The translations under genes and the position numbers were made by a program. Below, one piece after another: positions 22,044 through 63,192 of a stretch of 64,000 bases of DNA; the first letter of the stretch is position 1, and the number at the start of each line of letters is the position of its first letter. The notes below the pieces were generated by a model. That model was not told the DNA's origin. It was given only the letters and a program-made list of their open reading frames with translations, and made no database searches. Origin of the DNA: Candidatus Gastranaerophilales bacterium (lineage in GTDB: Bacteria; Cyanobacteriota; Vampirovibrionia; Gastranaerophilales; Gastranaerophilaceae); the NCBI GenBank assembly GCA_017415185.1, contig JAFQHZ010000039.1, positions 1-64,000 on the forward strand. Reading direction: 5' to 3'.

Positions 22044-22138
22044 ATCCAGATAAATTTTAAAAACTTGCAATAGAATTACTAAATTACAAAAAAATATTGT
22101 ATATATCAATAAAAAATTATACCAACAGAAAGGCTATT

Positions 22139-22525
22139 ATGAATATCAAAAATATTTCAAAAACGACATTCAAAGGAACTCTATTATTTGACAGACCAAT
22201 GAAATTTAGTGCAAAAGATAGTGATGTAACAAGCAATAATAATATAGTTTACAGCGAAGAACAATCTAAAAGTATAGCTGAAAATGCAAAGCGCATTATG
22301 CAAATTCCAGATGATGAAGAAATTTTTGGCTTGGAATTAAATGCTGATAATATAACGTTTCTAACTCCTGGTGAAGTAAGATACAAGGTACCAAGTACAA
22401 ATTATGAAGCTGTTTTTTTGTTTAATGGTGATTACAAAGAATTAAACACTCAAGAATATATTAGAGTGCTTACTGCTTACAATGCGGCAAAAATAGCGGA
22501 ACCAAATGTTATAATTCAAGCATAA
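22139..22525 (+). CDS. FK-tagged orphan protein
   Basis: 128 residues from the ATG at 22139, supported by GAAAGG five bases upstream; a TTG at 22097 would only add leader-like residues. The N-terminus MNIKNISKTTFKG carries the same Phe-Lys-Gly tag as the deiminase-fold protein at 62206. The remainder contains EEIFGLELN, LTPGEVRYKVP and a C-terminal helix. There are no membrane segments and no family is recognised. A terminator, which is a duplicate of the tRNA-Asp terminator, follows within 4 bp. Confidence 0.6.
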   Translation: MNIKNISKTTFKGTLLFDRPMKFSAKDSDVTSNNNIVYSEEQSKSIAENAKRIMQIPDDEEIFGLELNADNITFLTPGEVRYKVPSTNYEAVFLFNGDYKELNTQEYIRVLTAYNAAKIAEPNVIIQA

Positions 22526-40653: not shown

Positions 40654-43600
40654 ATGTATATAAAAGAAATCGAAATTGACAACTTTAAATCCTTTGCAAA
40701 CAAGGTGACAGTTCCTTTAATGCGCGGATTTACAGCAATATCAGGTCCAAATGGTTCAGGCAAAAGCAACATCATTGACTCTGTTCTTTTTGCGCTTGGA
40801 TTAACTACTGCTCGCACGTTGCGCTCAGAACAAGGCGTTGCAGATTTAATCACAAACCATAATAAACGTGGCGAAGCTTCTGTTAAAGTTACTTTTTCAG
40901 AGGATGATGACAGCCAAGAATTTTCAATCAAAAGACATATCAAAAAAGGCAGAAATGGCGTTCAGTCCAATTATTATTACAACGACAAACCTGCAACTTT
41001 AACGCAAATTCACCTAGAACTTGAAAAATATAACATTTCTCCAAACAGCTACAACGTTATGATGCAAGGGGATGTAACAGAAATTACAAAATGTTCTCCA
41101 AACGAAAGAAGAAAAATTATTGATGAAATTGCAGGAACTGCAGATTTTGATAGAAAAATCAACCTTGCAACAGAACAAATTCAAAGCGTTGAGGACAAAG
41201 TTGCTAATACAAATATTTTAATGAACGAAATCGATAACCGAATCGAACAATTAAAACAAGAAAGAGAAGTTGCTCTTAAATATAAAAAATTCAAAGACGA
41301 AAAAACCGAACTAGAAACAAAGATTCAATCAGCTAAATATTTTGATACTCAAAGAGCGCTAGAACTCGTTCATCAAAATATACTTTTAGCAACAAAGACA
41401 AAAAAAGAATTAACCCAAAAATTAAAAGAATCCGAATCAAAAATTGCAGACATAAAAGCAAAATATGACGAAGTAAATACCGCAGTTAGAGCGCAAGGCG
41501 AAGAAAAACAGCTGGAAGTTAAAAAAACAGCCGAAGAGAAAAAAGGCGCAATAGAGCGCAAAAATTCTGCCATTGCTCAATGCGAAAAAACAACTCTTGA
41601 TAATTTAAAATCTATCGAAGGTTACAAAAACGGAATTATTGTTCAAAAGGAAAAAATTGAAGAATATACATCTTCAATTGAGCAAAAAAACAAAGAATTA
41701 GAACAACTTAATATCGATTTAAAAGCCAAAAAAGAAGAATTAAGCAAAATTATTTCAGAAATGACAGGCTTAAATAAATCCGCAGACGAACACATCCAAA
41801 ATCGAAACAAATTAAGAAAAGAATTGGATGATTTAAAAGATAGCGAAACTCAGCTCATAAAAGAGCAGCTTCCCCTTGATAATACATATAAAAACAATGA
41901 AGAAAAAATTAAATCCATTAAAGAACAAATGGATAAACTTTTAAACTCAGCCAAAGTTTTTGAAAACGAAAAAGACAAATTAAGCGTTCAAGTCGAAACT
42001 TTAACAAAAGAAGTTGAAGAATGCAAAATCATTCAAACAAGGACTTTTGAAGAGCTCGACAAAACAAAATCTAAAAGAGAAGATGCTCAATATAATATTC
42101 AACAAGCACAAAAAAGAATTGCAATTTTAGACGCCAACAAAAATGCATATAAATCAGTTGGCTTAGGTTCAGGTATTGAAACCGTAATGAATGCCAAAAT
42201 TGCAGGTGTTCACCAACCATTAGCACAATTAGCAGACATCGAAGAAGAATATATTGACGCAATTAACGTTGCAATGGGAGCAAGAGCAGCTTCAATTGTT
42301 GTTGATGATCAAGATGTTGCATATCGTGCAATTCAAGTTCTTCGTTCTCAAGGAAGAGATAGAGCTTCTTTTATACCAATGAGCATAATTAAAAAAGCCC
42401 CAACCCGCATGGCATTGCCAAAAGAAAAAGGTGTAATTGATTTTGCTATTAATTTAATTGATTTTGATGATCAATATCTTGATGCTTTTTATTTTGCCCT
42501 TGGAGAAACTGTTGTAGTTGAGGATGAAAATTGCGCTAAAAAATTAGCTGGAAAATATAGAGTTGTAACTCTTGAAGGCGATATTACAGAAAAATCTGGT
42601 TTAATTACTGGTGGTGCCAAGAAAAAAACTACCGGTTTGTTTGATAAAACTCAAGAAAGAGAACTTGAAAAATACAAAAAAGCTCTTAAAAAATATGAAG
42701 AAGAAGCGCGCGAACTTGTTCAACTTCAAAAAGATTTAGAACGTCGTTTGGAAGATACAAGACAAAAATACTCTTCTTCTTTAAACGCCCTTAATTCTGC
42801 AAAATTAGAGCTTAAAAATCTAATTGCAAACAACGAATCTAGTGCAGACTTCATCAAAGAGGGCGAGGCGCAATTAAAACTTTTAAAAGAAGCTAATTCA
42901 AAATTAACAAAAGAGCTTGATTTATTGGAAAACAAACACATTAAATTAATGGATAAAATCCAAGAAAAACAAGAAGAATTGGAAGCGGTTGAAAAGCTGA
43001 TCGACGAAGGCGAACTCAAAAAACTAAGAGAAAAAACTCTTGGTGTTGAAGAGGAAATCAAAAATATCGAAAAAGCAATCATGACAAAAGAAAACGATAT
43101 TGAAAAAGACCAAAACCAAATCAAATTCCAACAAAGTCAAATCGTTACTCGTGAAAACGATATTAAAAAATTAACTAAAGATAATGAAGCTTTAGCGGGC
43201 GAAAAAGAACAATTTAAAGCTGAAATTGAAGCCTTAAAAATAGAACTAGAAGCTCTTGAAAAAGAAATTGAAGAACTTGGTAAAAATTTAAAAGAACTTC
43301 AAACAAAACGTGATGAATTAAATGAAGAGCTTTTAAACTTAAAAACAGCTAAAAATAAAACAACAGACGAGCTTGAAAGATTAGCAGAACAAGAAGAAAG
43401 CTATAAAGCAAGAAGAAGAGAACTTGAGCCTATGCTTGAAGCCATCTTAAAAGAACTCGAAAGCGCTGGAATTAACTATAAAGAGCTTGAAAAAACAGAT
43501 ATTTCTCTTGATGAAATAACTGCAAAAATCAATTCTCTTCAAAAGAAAATGGATGCCCTAGGCGATGTTAATATGCGTGCTTTAACTGAATATGATGAAG

Positions 43601-44154
43601 TTATGGAGCGCCAAAACGCCTATAAAGAAAAGGTTATGACACTAGAAAACGAGAAAAATGAAATCAAATCTCGTATGAATGGTTATCAAAACCTTAAAAA
43701 AGAAACATTCCTAGAGGCATATCATGCAATAAACAATAATTTTAAAGAAGTTTTTGCACAAATTTCAGAAGGCACAGGAAGTCTTTACCTTGAAAATGAA
43801 AACGATCCATTCTCTGGCGGTTTGACTTTTGTAGCTAACATTCGTGACAAAAAAAATCAAAAACTTGCAGGTATGTCAGGGGGCGAAAAATCCCTCACAG
43901 CTCTTGCTTTTGTTTTTGCTATTCAAAAATATTTACCAAGCCCATTTTATGCATTTGATGAGGTCGATATGCACTTGGATGGTCCAAACGTTGAAAGATT
44001 ATCAACAATTATCACAAATCAATCAAAAACTGCACAATTCGTAGTTGTATCGCTTAGAAAACCAATGTTAGATAACGCAGATAGAATGATTGGCGTAACC
44101 CAAAAGGACAAAGGGGTTACAAAAATTTCTGGCGTTAAATTAAGGGATGAATAA
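40654..44154 (+). CDS. smc: Chromosome partition protein SMC
   Basis: A condensin ATPase that loops and segregates DNA. 1,166 residues: head with YIKEIEIDNFKSFA and Walker A GPNGSGKSN (31-39), long coiled coil, hinge at about 500-660 (VGLGSGIETVMNAK, DRASFIPM, LEGDITEKSGLITGG), second coil, then the signature LAGMSGGEKSLTALAF and Walker B FYAFDEVDMHLD. scpA starts within its stop codon (TAATG), giving the complete SMC-ScpAB complex in one operon. Confidence 0.98.
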   Translation: MYIKEIEIDNFKSFANKVTVPLMRGFTAISGPNGSGKSNIIDSVLFALGLTTARTLRSEQGVADLITNHNKRGEASVKVTFSEDDDSQEFSIKRHIKKGRNGVQSNYYYNDKPATLTQIHLELEKYNISPNSYNVMMQGDVTEITKCSPNERRKIIDEIAGTADFDRKINLATEQIQSVEDKVANTNILMNEIDNRIEQLKQEREVALKYKKFKDEKTELETKIQSAKYFDTQRALELVHQNILLATKTKKELTQKLKESESKIADIKAKYDEVNTAVRAQGEEKQLEVKKTAEEKKGAIERKNSAIAQCEKTTLDNLKSIEGYKNGIIVQKEKIEEYTSSIEQKNKELEQLNIDLKAKKEELSKIISEMTGLNKSADEHIQNRNKLRKELDDLKDSETQLIKEQLPLDNTYKNNEEKIKSIKEQMDKLLNSAKVFENEKDKLSVQVETLTKEVEECKIIQTRTFEELDKTKSKREDAQYNIQQAQKRIAILDANKNAYKSVGLGSGIETVMNAKIAGVHQPLAQLADIEEEYIDAINVAMGARAASIVVDDQDVAYRAIQVLRSQGRDRASFIPMSIIKKAPTRMALPKEKGVIDFAINLIDFDDQYLDAFYFALGETVVVEDENCAKKLAGKYRVVTLEGDITEKSGLITGGAKKKTTGLFDKTQERELEKYKKALKKYEEEARELVQLQKDLERRLEDTRQKYSSSLNALNSAKLELKNLIANNESSADFIKEGEAQLKLLKEANSKLTKELDLLENKHIKLMDKIQEKQEELEAVEKLIDEGELKKLREKTLGVEEEIKNIEKAIMTKENDIEKDQNQIKFQQSQIVTRENDIKKLTKDNEALAGEKEQFKAEIEALKIELEALEKEIEELGKNLKELQTKRDELNEELLNLKTAKNKTTDELERLAEQEESYKARRRELEPMLEAILKELESAGINYKELEKTDISLDEITAKINSLQKKMDALGDVNMRALTEYDEVMERQNAYKEKVMTLENEKNEIKSRMNGYQNLKKETFLEAYHAINNNFKEVFAQISEGTGSLYLENENDPFSGGLTFVANIRDKKNQKLAGMSGGEKSLTALAFVFAIQKYLPSPFYAFDEVDMHLDGPNVERLSTIITNQSKTAQFVVVSLRKPMLDNADRMIGVTQKDKGVTKISGVKLRDE

Positions 44155-45029
44155 TGTCTGAAGCTGTGAATTTTTATTCAAACAACAAAAAAATATATGA
44201 TGACATAACAGTCCTTGATGGTACTGTTGATTTTGGCGGAAATACAGAATTTATATCAAAATCAGGCATAAAAAAAGATGTTCAAACAGATGCAATCGAA
44301 ATTGTTTTAGATTTAGTTCGAATGGGCAAAATTGACCCTTGGAACATTGATATTGTCGATTTGTATGACAAATATATGGCTCGAATTTCAGAACTAAAAC
44401 AAGACAACTTGCGCTCAGTTGGCAAAGCCTTATTATTTTCGACAACTTTATTAAAAATCAAATCTGATATTTTTCAAGGAATTTCAATTAGTGATTTTGA
44501 AGTTGAACCTTTGGATTATTTTGAAGACGACAATTTTGACGATTCAGACTATGAACAACTGCATATTCCGACAAATAATATTGTTTCTTTTGATGAAGTA
44601 TTACAAAGAAGAACTTCCGTTCGTTTAAATCGCAAAAGGAATGTGACTTTAAAAGATTTGATTCGCCATATCCAATTTTATGAAGAATTAGAAAAAAAAT
44701 ACGCAATTAAATCAGCGCTGGATAGAAAAGAAAGAAGAGTTCGAAACTATGCAAGCCTCAAGGCTCATCAAATCAAAGAATTGGCGCATGATGAATATGT
44801 TGAAGAAGTAGTTGAAAAAATGAGACAAAATTTAGCACAAATTTTATCTCGTGAAGAAAGCATTGAATTAAGGGAACTTTGTTTATTAAATTTTGATAAA
44901 AGTTCTGCTTTCATTGCGCTATTGTTTTTGGCTCGTGAAGAGCAATATGAACTTTATCAAGAAGAATTTTATGGAAAACTTTTTGTCAAAAAAGCAGAAA
45001 AAAATGAAAATGTTGAGGAAGAAAATTAA
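44154..45029 (+). CDS. scpA: Segregation and condensation protein A (kleisin)
   Basis: The kleisin subunit that bridges the SMC heads. 291 residues with an extra N-terminal segment of about 45. The family core starts at DAIEIVLDLVRMGKIDPWNIDIVDL, followed by SVGKALLFSTTLLKIKSD, an acidic linker, and a C-terminal winged-helix part with SREESIELRELCLLNF and SAFIALLFLAREEQYELYQEEFYG. It overlaps smc and scpB by one base each. Confidence 0.96.
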   Translation: MSEAVNFYSNNKKIYDDITVLDGTVDFGGNTEFISKSGIKKDVQTDAIEIVLDLVRMGKIDPWNIDIVDLYDKYMARISELKQDNLRSVGKALLFSTTLLKIKSDIFQGISISDFEVEPLDYFEDDNFDDSDYEQLHIPTNNIVSFDEVLQRRTSVRLNRKRNVTLKDLIRHIQFYEELEKKYAIKSALDRKERRVRNYASLKAHQIKELAHDEYVEEVVEKMRQNLAQILSREESIELRELCLLNFDKSSAFIALLFLAREEQYELYQEEFYGKLFVKKAEKNENVEEEN

Positions 45030-45541
45030 TGGAATCAGCAATTTTAAAATCAAAAATTGAAGCAATATTATTTATCACATCAAAAGCAATGCAACCAATT
45101 GAAATTGCACAACTCTTAGATATTGAAGAAGAAGTAGCACAAGAAGCACTGCTTGACTTAATGTTTGACTATGCTTCAAGAGAAGGTGCGCTTGAAATTG
45201 ATGACGAAGATGGATATATTATCCAAGTTAAAGCAGAGCACATGGATATTGTTGAAAAACTTTGCCCTGTTGAATTATCTCCTGCAGTTATTAAAACTTT
45301 AACTGTAATCGCCCTAAAAGAACCAATCAGACAATCTTATTTAAAAGAAATTCGCCCAAGCGCTTATGAGCATATTTCAGAGCTTCTTGAGCAAGGTTTG
45401 ATTTCTCGTTCAAAAGATAAAAACGGAAGAAGTTTCAATATTAGAACAACAAAAAAATTTCAGGAGTATTTTAAACTTAAGGGCGACATCAAAGCTCTTG
45501 TTAAAAAACTGGATGCAACTCAAGATTTAAAAGATTTGTAA
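45029..45541 (+). CDS. scpB: Segregation and condensation protein B
   Basis: Winged-helix dimer subunit of condensin. 170 residues: KIEAILFITSKAMQPIEIAQ, DEDGYIIQVKAEH, LSPAVIKTLTVIALKEPI, and RSKDKNGRSFNIRTTKKFQEYFKL. Two winged-helix domains are expected. The next gene starts directly after its stop codon. Confidence 0.96.
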   Translation: MESAILKSKIEAILFITSKAMQPIEIAQLLDIEEEVAQEALLDLMFDYASREGALEIDDEDGYIIQVKAEHMDIVEKLCPVELSPAVIKTLTVIALKEPIRQSYLKEIRPSAYEHISELLEQGLISRSKDKNGRSFNIRTTKKFQEYFKLKGDIKALVKKLDATQDLKDL

Positions 45542-46840
45542 ATGTTAATCACTCCCATCACCAAAACAAATATTCAGCCAACAAAATTACAATCACATCA
45601 TTTAGCTCAAATTCAAACAAGAGAGGATGGCTTTGTGTTTGAAAATCAAAATATAAATAAAAAAGTTTTAATAGAAAGAAAAATAATCAAAGAAAATCAA
45701 AATATTAATTCTTTTTATGATTCGATTTCAACACATATCTTTCCTGATTCAAAACTTGCACACAGTTTTTCAAAACTGCTTCAAGGGGGATATATAGCGC
45801 TTTCAACAAGCGCATATAGCGATTTATCAAATCCAAAAAGCGCAATAGCTCTTAAACTTGATAGCACAAAAAACGTTGTTCATCATTGTTGCACCCTTGA
45901 AAATTATATTAGCAAAGGAATTGGCATTGGAATAAATTATTCCAATCTTAAAAACCCAATTGAAGAAATAATATACACAAACAACTATTTTAAAAAAAGA
46001 GAACCCCATCTTCGCCGTCCTCCGGCTGGAATTGGTCTTTTGAATATTACTCATCCTAAAATAATGGATTTTATTGCCCTTAAAGACAACGCAAACTACA
46101 ACGATTGGTGTTTTAATTTGTCTGTTGTAATGGATGACAATTTTTTAACAAAAGTCGACACAAATCAAGACTTAATTTTAGACGATGGAACAAAAATTAA
46201 AGCGAGCGAAGTTTATTCAAAACTTATCGATTCAATGAGAAAAAAAGGTGAACCAGGAATAATTTTTTCAAACGAAAAAGATTTCATTTGCGATTCTTGC
46301 GCAGCAAGCCAATTGAAAGAAAACGAAGCTTTAAACTTGGCTCAAATTAATCTTTCAAAATTTTACAACAAAGAATCCAAAACATTTGACTATGCATTTT
46401 TATCGCAAAGCGCCAACACTTTAACCATGGCGCTTAGAAGAATTGCTCCTGATGGCTTTATTAGCATATTAGGTTATCAAGATTTATTAAATCAAATGGG
46501 ATTAAATTATGGTTCAAAAGAAGCGCTTGAAGTCTTAGAAAAGGCTCTTTTAACCATAAAAGAACAAAGCCAAATTGAAGGAATAAGAATGTGTATTTCA
46601 CCATCAGGCGCAACATCAAGAATCTTAAAAACCACCCCATCAATCGAGCCAATAAACAATACTTACGCAACCTATTGGGATGAAATCGACACAATGGCAG
46701 CAGCTCAAAAATATCTTGATGGCGGAATTTCAAAAACAATCAATTTGAAACCAAACCACACAACTCAAGATGTCGATTTAATTATTCGCTCTTGCTTCCA
46801 ACAAGGAATCAAAGGAGTTACTGTTTTTCCACCGCAATAA
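45542..46840 (+). CDS. Shortened ribonucleotide-reductase-like protein, key residues altered
   Basis: 432 residues that follow the order of the large-subunit barrel of class I/II ribonucleotide reductases: KGIGIGINYSNLKNP, RRPPAGIGLLNITHP, DWCFNLSV, KGEPGIIF, INLSKF, LGYQDLLNQMGLNYGS, CISPSGATSRI..TTPSIEP, and AAAQKYLDGGISKTINL..GIKGVTVF. It lacks an ATP cone and the C-terminal CxxC. In the finger loop DSCAA (251-255) the radical-site Cys seems kept (Cys253), but the usual Asn and Glu are Asp and Ala. The first redox Cys appears replaced by Ala near 101. It starts directly after scpB. An active reductase is doubtful; a repurposed or decaying paralogue is more likely. Confidence 0.65.
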   Translation: MLITPITKTNIQPTKLQSHHLAQIQTREDGFVFENQNINKKVLIERKIIKENQNINSFYDSISTHIFPDSKLAHSFSKLLQGGYIALSTSAYSDLSNPKSAIALKLDSTKNVVHHCCTLENYISKGIGIGINYSNLKNPIEEIIYTNNYFKKREPHLRRPPAGIGLLNITHPKIMDFIALKDNANYNDWCFNLSVVMDDNFLTKVDTNQDLILDDGTKIKASEVYSKLIDSMRKKGEPGIIFSNEKDFICDSCAASQLKENEALNLAQINLSKFYNKESKTFDYAFLSQSANTLTMALRRIAPDGFISILGYQDLLNQMGLNYGSKEALEVLEKALLTIKEQSQIEGIRMCISPSGATSRILKTTPSIEPINNTYATYWDEIDTMAAAQKYLDGGISKTINLKPNHTTQDVDLIIRSCFQQGIKGVTVFPPQ

Positions 46841-47960
46841 ATTCATTCATATTTAGCGCTAACAAACTTTTTATTTCATTAATATCAGCGCAACGACCAA
46901 AAACAATCGCAAAAACAGGCTTTGTTTTATAATCAATTTTCCTTACATCAAGAGGATTAGAGATATTTTTCAAATATTTATCATATTTTATTTCTTTAAT
47001 TGAATTTTTATCTATATTTGATGGAACATCTCCGATTGTGAAATAAAAATAATCATCATTGGCATTTTTTAAAATATCATCCCAATTTGGTTTTTTGTTT
47101 TCCATAAAATAAACATAAGGATTTATACCCCAAGAAAATTGCGCAATATCTGTTATACACCAACCACAAAATCTCATTGGATTAATTTCAATTGGAATGA
47201 TTCCTTTTTGAGAAACTCTTAATTCCAAATGAAAAGGAAAATTTTTATAATTTCCTTCTTTTTCAATTTTATCTAATAGTTCATTAAAAGGCTTTAAATA
47301 TGTTTTAATGATTTCTTTTGAAGAATAATAAATTCTATCTGATACATCATTTTCATCAAAAAAAGGATGTTGAAAAATATTTAATATTGTCGCCTTTCCT
47401 TCACCATCAAAATAAGCATCGATAGCAAATTCCTCTCCTTCAATCATTTCTTCGATTAAAAAATTCGTGCAATCAACAACGCTCAAAGGAAAAACACCTT
47501 TTAATTTTTCAATATCAGAATCAATTTTTGAAAGAACTTTTTCAAATTCAACTTCATTTTTAATTGGATAAACTCCAAAGCTCAAAAACCCAACACAAGG
47601 CTTTAAAACAAAAGGATATTTAAAATCTTTTGAATTTGCTTTTTTCAATTCAAACAATGTTAGCTCTTTAAAATAATAATCAGGATAAATTTTAGAAAGC
47701 ATTTTTCTGAACAAAGCCTTATCTTTGCTAATTTTAATCATTTTTGAAAATTCAGAATCAGGCAAGTTTTCAACTATCCAATCAATCGAATTTTCAGAAT
47801 TTGAATAAAATTTTTCTTCTGTTTTTGCAACTTCGCTTGAAGTTAATTCGCTTTTTTCAAAATAATTTCTTGAAATTTCATTATCTAAAACTTTATATCC
47901 CTGTTTTTTAATTGTTTCAACCAAAAAATCTGAAACATAAGGATTATTTAAAATAAACAT
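46818..47960 (-). CDS. ATP-grasp ligase-like protein
   Basis: 380 residues. ATP-grasp features are present: the FVLKPCVGFLSFGVYPI glycine-rich loop region, NFLIEEMIEGEEFAIDAYFD, and the metal-binding strand IIPIEINPMRFCGWC. Such enzymes join a carboxylate to an amine or thiol via acyl phosphate. The substrate is unknown. It starts directly after the CgeB-like gene's stop, so the two probably act together. The 3' end overlaps the convergent RNR-like gene by 23 bp. Confidence 0.85.
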   Translation of the reverse strand: MFILNNPYVSDFLVETIKKQGYKVLDNEISRNYFEKSELTSSEVAKTEEKFYSNSENSIDWIVENLPDSEFSKMIKISKDKALFRKMLSKIYPDYYFKELTLFELKKANSKDFKYPFVLKPCVGFLSFGVYPIKNEVEFEKVLSKIDSDIEKLKGVFPLSVVDCTNFLIEEMIEGEEFAIDAYFDGEGKATILNIFQHPFFDENDVSDRIYYSSKEIIKTYLKPFNELLDKIEKEGNYKNFPFHLELRVSQKGIIPIEINPMRFCGWCITDIAQFSWGINPYVYFMENKKPNWDDILKNANDDYFYFTIGDVPSNIDKNSIKEIKYDKYLKNISNPLDVRKIDYKTKPVFAIVFGRCADINEIKSLLALNMNEFIAVEKQ

Positions 47961-62205: not shown

Positions 62206-63192
62206 ATGAAAATCAATTTTTCTCATCCCCAAAATTTCAAAGGATACGATGCTCTTGCGCTAAAAGCGCTCCATATAGAAGAATCTACAAGCGAGCCAAT
62301 AAGAGAAGAGCTTAAAAATATTGCAAAAAAAGAAAATTTTGAACTTAGACAAGAACTTGATTATTTCAAATGGACACAAGATTTTAAAACAATCATCGAA
62401 CAAAAAGGAAAACCCGTTGTTGTGGTTAATAATCGAGTGGATGAGAATTTTCTTGATGAAATGAAATATAGATATGGAATTCAAGGAAAAACACTAGATT
62501 TAATTGCAACAGGAGGAAATTCATTCATTGGCAAATTTCCAAATGGCGACAAATGGATGTTAATTGGAGAAAGCGAATTTAACACAAAATCAAAAAAATA
62601 TATTTCAAAAGAATACGAAATTAAAGAAGAAAATATTTTTCCAATTCCTCAACAATATTACCATCTTGATATGTTTTTAAGGCCCATAGGTTTTCCTTAT
62701 GTTTTAGTTGACAGCCCTGTTTTGTCGGAAAAAAAGCTTGCTTCAAAAGATATAAGACAAGGAAGTTATGATTATATAACTTTAAACAAAGAGTTTAAAT
62801 ATTGGGAACAAAACCGCTCAAAAAATTATGATTCACATAACGATGTGATTGAAGCATTAGAAAAAGCAGGCTTTAAACCGATTCAAATTGCAGGAGTATT
62901 TGGTTCAGGAATCAATTTTATGAATGCGATAATAAATCAACACCAAGACGGTACAATTTCATATATAACCAACGGCACAAAATGCGATAGCGATTTTATA
63001 ACCAGCCTTCAACAAGATTTTGAAAAAGAGCTAAGACAAAAAGTTCCAAACATAAGAAATGTTTATTTTGTAAATGGCGACGATTCATATACTAACGAAA
63101 TGTCGAATTATATGATGGACAATTTAGCCTATCGTGGAGGCGGAATTCATTGTATGAGTTTAGAAGAACCTAGTTTTGAACTTTGGGGGTAA
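62206..63192 (+). CDS. FK-tagged deiminase-fold (guanidino-modifying enzyme) protein
   Basis: 328 residues. After the tag QNFKG (9-13) the protein follows the order of agmatine or peptidylarginine deiminase-type enzymes. It has ATGGNSFIGKFPNG (101-114), YYHLDMFLRPIG with the putative catalytic His153 and Asp155, VFGSGINFMN, and GGGIHCMSLEEP with the putative nucleophile Cys316 close to the C-terminus, as in agmatine deiminases (GGGIHC). The overall sequence is otherwise divergent. A substrate with a guanidinium group, free or in protein, is predicted. No agmatine-pathway genes are nearby. It overlaps the next convergent gene by 23 bp. Confidence 0.7.
   Translation: MKINFSHPQNFKGYDALALKALHIEESTSEPIREELKNIAKKENFELRQELDYFKWTQDFKTIIEQKGKPVVVVNNRVDENFLDEMKYRYGIQGKTLDLIATGGNSFIGKFPNGDKWMLIGESEFNTKSKKYISKEYEIKEENIFPIPQQYYHLDMFLRPIGFPYVLVDSPVLSEKKLASKDIRQGSYDYITLNKEFKYWEQNRSKNYDSHNDVIEALEKAGFKPIQIAGVFGSGINFMNAIINQHQDGTISYITNGTKCDSDFITSLQQDFEKELRQKVPNIRNVYFVNGDDSYTNEMSNYMMDNLAYRGGGIHCMSLEEPSFELWG

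Follow-up and report, generated by a model that had tools for sequence, protein, structure and literature searches.

Does the condensin operon of a gut lineage of Cyanobacteriota end in a working ribonucleotide reductase (RNR), a remodelled enzyme, or a protein that has kept the RNR fold for another purpose? The question is raised by a 432-aa open reading frame in the window, which is the whole 64,000-nucleotide stretch of Candidatus Gastranaerophilales DNA that was analysed.

A short RNR-like gene behind scpB

The open reading frame follows three condensin genes on the same strand:

40654..44154, + strand: smc; Pfam match SMC, same operon
44154..45029, + strand: scpA; Pfam match ScpA, same operon
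45029..45541, + strand: scpB; Pfam match ScpB, directly upstream, a conserved neighbour
45542..46840, + strand: RNR-like protein, 432 aa; class II RNR barrel fold (predicted), catalytic residues replaced

The TAA stop codon of scpB is followed at once by the ATG of the 432-aa frame (TAAATG), and Ribonuc_red_lgC (PF02867) is the sole Pfam family matched by its product (E = 4.3e-22). The position directly behind scpB, which an earlier sequence-only reading of the window had pointed out, recurs in all 26 genomes that carry the gene, with spacings from a 4-base overlap to a gap of 6 bases (-4 to 6). Moreover, scpB lies upstream at all 25 loci of the genus that were examined for both neighbours, while the downstream gene is convergent in 25/25, yet of several kinds. 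Because scpB always comes before it and the next gene is convergent and variable in kind, the RNR-like gene seems to close the smc-scpA-scpB operon. Searches for promoters and terminators gave nothing above shuffled sequences.

In the window, the convergent neighbour encodes an ATP-grasp_4 protein (46818-47960, - strand) and shares 23 bases with the RNR-like gene at the latter's 3′ end; a relative of it is adjacent at most of the genus loci examined for neighbours. Separately, starts resembling M-x-I...F-[KN]-G occur in unrelated proteins (window 62206-63192 and 22097-22525, neither of which has a Pfam match; L085:673-1026; L137:11955-12716). The enrichment of such an N-terminal F-x-G tag, spotted by eye, was unconvincing in a counting test, and the candidate was rejected.

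The predicted fold is that of a class II RNR barrel

The AlphaFold2 model of the protein, built with 26 relatives, has a mean pLDDT of 89.5 and a pTM of 0.86. Its top Foldseek match is Thermotoga maritima NrdJ (1xje, E = 1.3e-21), and VIA-align superimposes it on T. maritima NrdJ (3o0o) over 391 residues (Z = 35.5, 2.2 Å) and on a class Id subunit over 375 residues (Z = 37.0, 2.5 Å); the class Ø structure 7urg is not among the 50 matches listed in these comparisons. The model contains the 10-stranded barrel of class II RNRs. Together, the model and the structure matches indicate that the barrel is intact despite the shortness of the protein, so that its recognition from the sequence holds up.

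The sequence-only reading had also leaned on the missing ATP-cone and on the length of only 432 residues. Both observations are correct (Pfam finds no ATP-cone in the protein), but neither is diagnostic. In particular, an ATP-cone is reported for only 11.3% of class II RNRs (PMC9669993), which makes its absence uninformative, and the minimal class Ø RNRs, which have no cone, are described as averaging 412 aa (PMC9531940), so that small size does not set the protein apart.

Loss of the catalytic residues is fixed across the genus

The residues that bear on function, placed by a MAFFT alignment of 26 genus proteins with 11 NrdJ from within the order, are:

45542..45637, + strand: residues 1-32, predicted disordered N-terminal extension; pLDDT < 50, fast evolving
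45842..45844, + strand: Ala101, at reducing Cys 1 of NrdJ; Ala in 26/26
46016..46024, + strand: R159-P160-P161, in place of NrdJ R-R-G by alignment
46106..46111, + strand: W189-C190, invariant in 26/26 and absent from the 11 NrdJ
46289..46306, + strand: finger loop C250-D251-S252-C253-A254-A255; C253 is at the radical-cysteine position
46331..46333, + strand: Leu264, at reducing Cys 2 of NrdJ; Leu in 23/26, Phe in 3/26
46601..46618, + strand: P354-S359, counterpart of the NrdJ PTGTIS loop; Pro 26/26, Gly 25/26, Ser 26/26

All 11 NrdJ are intact at the catalytic sites and keep N-P-C-G-E in the finger loop. The N-x-C-x-E pattern is common to class I, II and Ø RNRs according to PMC9669993, and the glutamate of the loop is the proposed base (PMC4390871). 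The DSCAA that had been read in the open reading frame aligns to N-P-C-G-E and belongs to a genus-wide pattern, D-x-C-A/G-A/T in 26/26, where Asp always replaces Asn and the glutamate is always replaced (Ala in 23, Thr in 3). The radical cysteine itself (C253) is kept in 26/26 and in two distant relatives described below; the loss of the Asn and the Glu, flagged in the window protein, is thus fixed in the 26 genus proteins. The reducing cysteine pair of strands A and F is absent in 26/26, the Cys 1 column being the least certain of the alignment. The joint loss of the Asn, the Glu and both reducing cysteines makes normal ribonucleotide reduction very unlikely.

Further, NrdJ segments of 14, 17, 56, 61 and 68 aa, along with shorter ones, are missing here; the last of them is the Cys-rich tail, which bears out the earlier remark that the C-terminal redox cysteine pair is lacking. 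The protein stops after the last strand, with no glycyl-radical domain of the class III type at its C-terminus and PF02867 as its only Pfam match. Overall, it shares with the class II NrdJ of T. maritima and of Gastranaerophilales the barrel fold, the finger-loop cysteine, the phosphate-loop residues and its sequence ancestry, but differs in size (432 aa versus ~630-690 aa), in the loss of N, E, both reducing cysteines and the Cys-rich tail, and in the deletion of the effector-loop region and of the 56- and 61-aa segments. The R-R-G site replaced by R159-P160-P161 is presumably effector loop 2, and we take the PTGTIS loop of NrdJ to bind the substrate phosphate. Profile scores follow the same line: TIGR02504 (NrdJ_Z) gives 115.8 bits, below its cut-off of 399.95, versus 740.4 for an intact NrdJ from a sister genus, and the NCBIfam model PRK06948, 'ribonucleotide reductase-like protein', matches weakly (E = 5.9e-10, 38.4 bits against a cut-off of 906 bits).

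In all probability, the RNR-like protein is no RNR itself, and its residues strongly suggest that it cannot reduce ribonucleotides by class II chemistry. It has two marks of an RNR pseudoenzyme such as the inactive R1 homologues of betaherpesviruses: the RNR fold, by prediction, and a conserved loss of catalytic residues.

Distribution, ancestry and selection

Among 28 genomes from the genus (Candidatus Gastranaerophilales), the gene is present in 26 and missing from two (G015 and G027). All 26 carriers encode the same short form in one open frame (368-448 aa); one row tallies a TAA, as the match begins ahead of its 427-aa reading frame. A frameshift, which the sequence-only reading had named as an explanation that would overturn it, is excluded along with a pseudogene by these 26 open short forms and by low dN/dS values. 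The latter are 0.13-0.23 for the 20 closest of 325 pairs (Nei-Gojobori). Across the same 14 pairs, scpB has values of 0.005-0.052 versus 0.136-0.230 for the RNR-like gene, and residues 1-39 exceed the core in 13/14. With dN/dS low but above that of scpB, the RNR-like gene appears to be functional, yet faster-evolving than its neighbour.

The RNR-like profile has no second match in the 28 genus genomes; since in other genera this profile does catch intact NrdJ, with E values that are mostly near 1e-20 or lower, the genus seems to be free of NrdJ. A PF02867 search of seven genus genomes found the short protein alone in five and nothing in G015 and G027. Other genera of the family carry ordinary NrdJ; the family sample comprised 239 genomes, and 65 of these gave no match.

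Degenerate RNR-like proteins also occur in two other genera (L085:2375-4063, 562 aa, in G255; L084:1333-2379, 348 aa, in G131), and G255 has an intact NrdJ elsewhere in its genome. Both proteins have Ser for the finger-loop Asn, Glu or Asp at the Glu site and no reducing Cys 2; at the Cys 1 site, one has Met and the other is unaligned. The L085 protein yields a weaker model (pLDDT 73.2) that superimposes on NrdJ over 493 residues (Z = 31.3, 3.3 Å). In a tree of 41 rows with long branches (the viral row of the original 42 was dropped; outgroup Patescibacteria), the 26 proteins fall on one side of a branch (support 100/99) with long stems, and split off together with the two distant relatives (100/100). 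NrdJ of the same order form the neighbouring group (96/89).

A phage origin found no support in a tblastn search with the window protein, an insensitive search that returned no phage record at 1e-5. The L085 relative matches 3,427 phage records, and the 15 matches listed have 21-29% identity and are all annotated RNRs. A scan of viral contigs gave five loci, with a readable finger loop of N-P-C-x-E in 5/5; among three genome loci outside the order, the loop was readable in one and intact there. One record, Microcystis phage MaAM05 (L160, MW495066.1, 1000-2895), encodes an NPCGE class II RNR near an aconitase and a sigma factor, and this stretch looks more bacterial than phage.

Other sources of deoxyribonucleotides and cobalamin

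NrdD is found in 27/28 genus genomes, the exception being G007; G012 has two NrdD-type matches (C47 and C73). Profile searches of the 28 genomes gave no other class I or class II RNR, and the lineage apparently relies on NrdD in place of a class II enzyme. The adenosyltransferase BtuR is found in 0/21 genus genomes tested versus 11/11 NrdJ-bearing relatives tested, and a PduO-type adenosyltransferase in 0/32 genomes. As judged from gene content, the cofactor route of class II RNRs and NrdJ were lost together; a possible reading of the BtuR absence in the tested genus genomes is that B12 use was lost, though import of ready-made adenosylcobalamin could still occur. Cobalamin riboswitches, 0/32 above cut-off, were uninformative as a B12 marker.

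Is the protein connected to condensin?

It is about an even bet that the protein is conserved and functional but unrelated to condensin, its gene having been inserted once behind scpB in an ancestor and kept there for co-expression; such a history is compatible with a pseudoenzyme and with a new enzyme alike. The link to scpB is limited to one genus: at seven loci from other genera, the RNR-like gene is never behind scpB and another gene takes its place, a TPR-like membrane protein (by eye) in 5/7. The two distant relatives are located elsewhere, neither adjoining scpB in the stretches read, one of which is a contig of only 3,989 bases. Moreover, G015 and G027 keep scpA and scpB though the RNR-like gene is gone; in G015 the absence is clean, a relative of the window's ATP-grasp gene starting 5 bases after scpB, and in G027 a different gene follows. 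The loss from 2/28 genomes with scpA and scpB kept, together with relatives that are not beside scpB, disfavours a tight condensin link, and a functional tie between the RNR-like protein and condensin appears rather doubtful. Counting against a protein unrelated to condensin, the spacing expected of translational coupling is kept in 26/26 though the downstream genes have changed.

A biological rationale for such a tie exists in Bacillus subtilis. Hydroxyurea, which lowers dNTPs, helps smc mutants to grow and to segregate their origins, and slowing the forks with this RNR inhibitor relieves the need for SMC (as described in PMC3919155); hydroxyurea is reported to have other effects too (PMC4634966).

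Pseudoenzyme, new enzyme or altered RNR

The main rival to a pseudoenzyme is a new enzyme, in which C253, D251 and the newly acquired C190 would catalyse some other reaction of a nucleotide-like substrate, perhaps through cysteine or thiyl chemistry. It owes that standing to C190 and C253, the only invariant cysteines of the seven in the window protein, among 43 invariant residues at a median pairwise identity of 49%; D251 and E237 are the sole invariant acidic residues. Since Cys253 is retained in 26/26, a cysteine-based activity is possible. The C190 column holds Cys in 26/26 genus proteins and Asn in NrdJ, with Cys in one of the two distant relatives and Arg in the other. However, no radical source is apparent: the protein has no glycyl-radical tail, and the genus genomes tested have neither BtuR nor a PduO-type enzyme. 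The invariance of C253 and C190 agrees equally well with a cysteine-based enzyme and with a pseudoenzyme; the retained barrel and phosphate-loop residues favour a nucleotide-binding pseudoenzyme. On balance, a pseudoenzyme is somewhat better than an even proposition, and a new enzyme is unlikely.

A divergent working RNR, class Ø-like and minimal or otherwise altered in chemistry, is very improbable. It would account for the length, which equals that of the class Ø alpha subunit of Synechococcus phage S-CBP4 (432 aa as annotated, and likewise without an ATP-cone) and lies near the class Ø average (PMC9531940). Precedent for altered chemistry comes from class III NrdD3 (QCCR/A), described as having neither the Met nor the Glu and maybe using a novel mechanism (PMC9669993). 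In contrast, the S-CBP4 protein has an intact N-V-C-L-E, and a beta gene lies behind its own, whereas the pattern shared by class Ø, I and II is replaced here in 26/26, both reducing cysteines are gone, and no beta gene adjoins the RNR-like gene at its locus. In a set of 43 sequences, the RNR-like (A1) profile did not match class Ø alpha at E = 10, so that a class Ø identity is ruled out by finger loop and profile, and the near-universal NrdD also counts against a working RNR. A decaying relic without a function that matters, carried along by the condensin operon, might be suggested by the loss in two genomes but is hardly credible given the low dN/dS, the 26/26 open frames, the confident fold and the invariant residues.

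A probably repurposed barrel and what it may mean

The preferred reading, with a probability of about 0.42, is that a repurposed class II barrel, encoded last in the smc-scpA-scpB operon, is a nucleotide-binding pseudoenzyme made along with condensin. In Gastranaerophilales, the barrel of a B12-dependent class II RNR very probably gave rise to a protein that is no RNR, and one genus encodes it as the apparent last gene of the condensin operon. The protein may still bind a nucleotide, through the kept phosphate-loop residues and the finger loop, and C253 together with C190 could form a redox or ligand-gating element. Produced together with condensin, the repurposed barrel would be a ligand-dependent partner or sensor; in one version, nucleotide supply, which sets fork speed, would be reported to SMC-ScpAB. 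The far stronger constraint on scpB counts against this reading. The fullest form of this proposal, a bacterial family that has lost RNR activity, keeps the radical-cysteine finger loop beside a new cysteine and serves as a nucleotide sensor linking DNA-precursor supply to condensin, is improbable.

The closest known parallels are the betaherpesvirus R1 homologues (HCMV UL45 and MCMV M45), inactive homologues of the RNR large subunit with another role (PMC5469499). Those proteins are viral, are homologous to the cellular class I subunit and act on host signalling, whereas the RNR-like protein is bacterial and class II-derived. The open-access literature searched yielded no earlier report of a bacterial RNR pseudoenzyme or of this Gastranaerophilales protein; in it, inactive RNR relatives are known from herpesviruses only, and the present family would be a conserved bacterial case. 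It would show how an essential radical enzyme can be recycled once a lineage has, as it appears, come to depend on NrdD instead of a class II RNR, and its position in the condensin operon offers a concrete entry to the question of whether chromosome packing responds to the supply of nucleotides.
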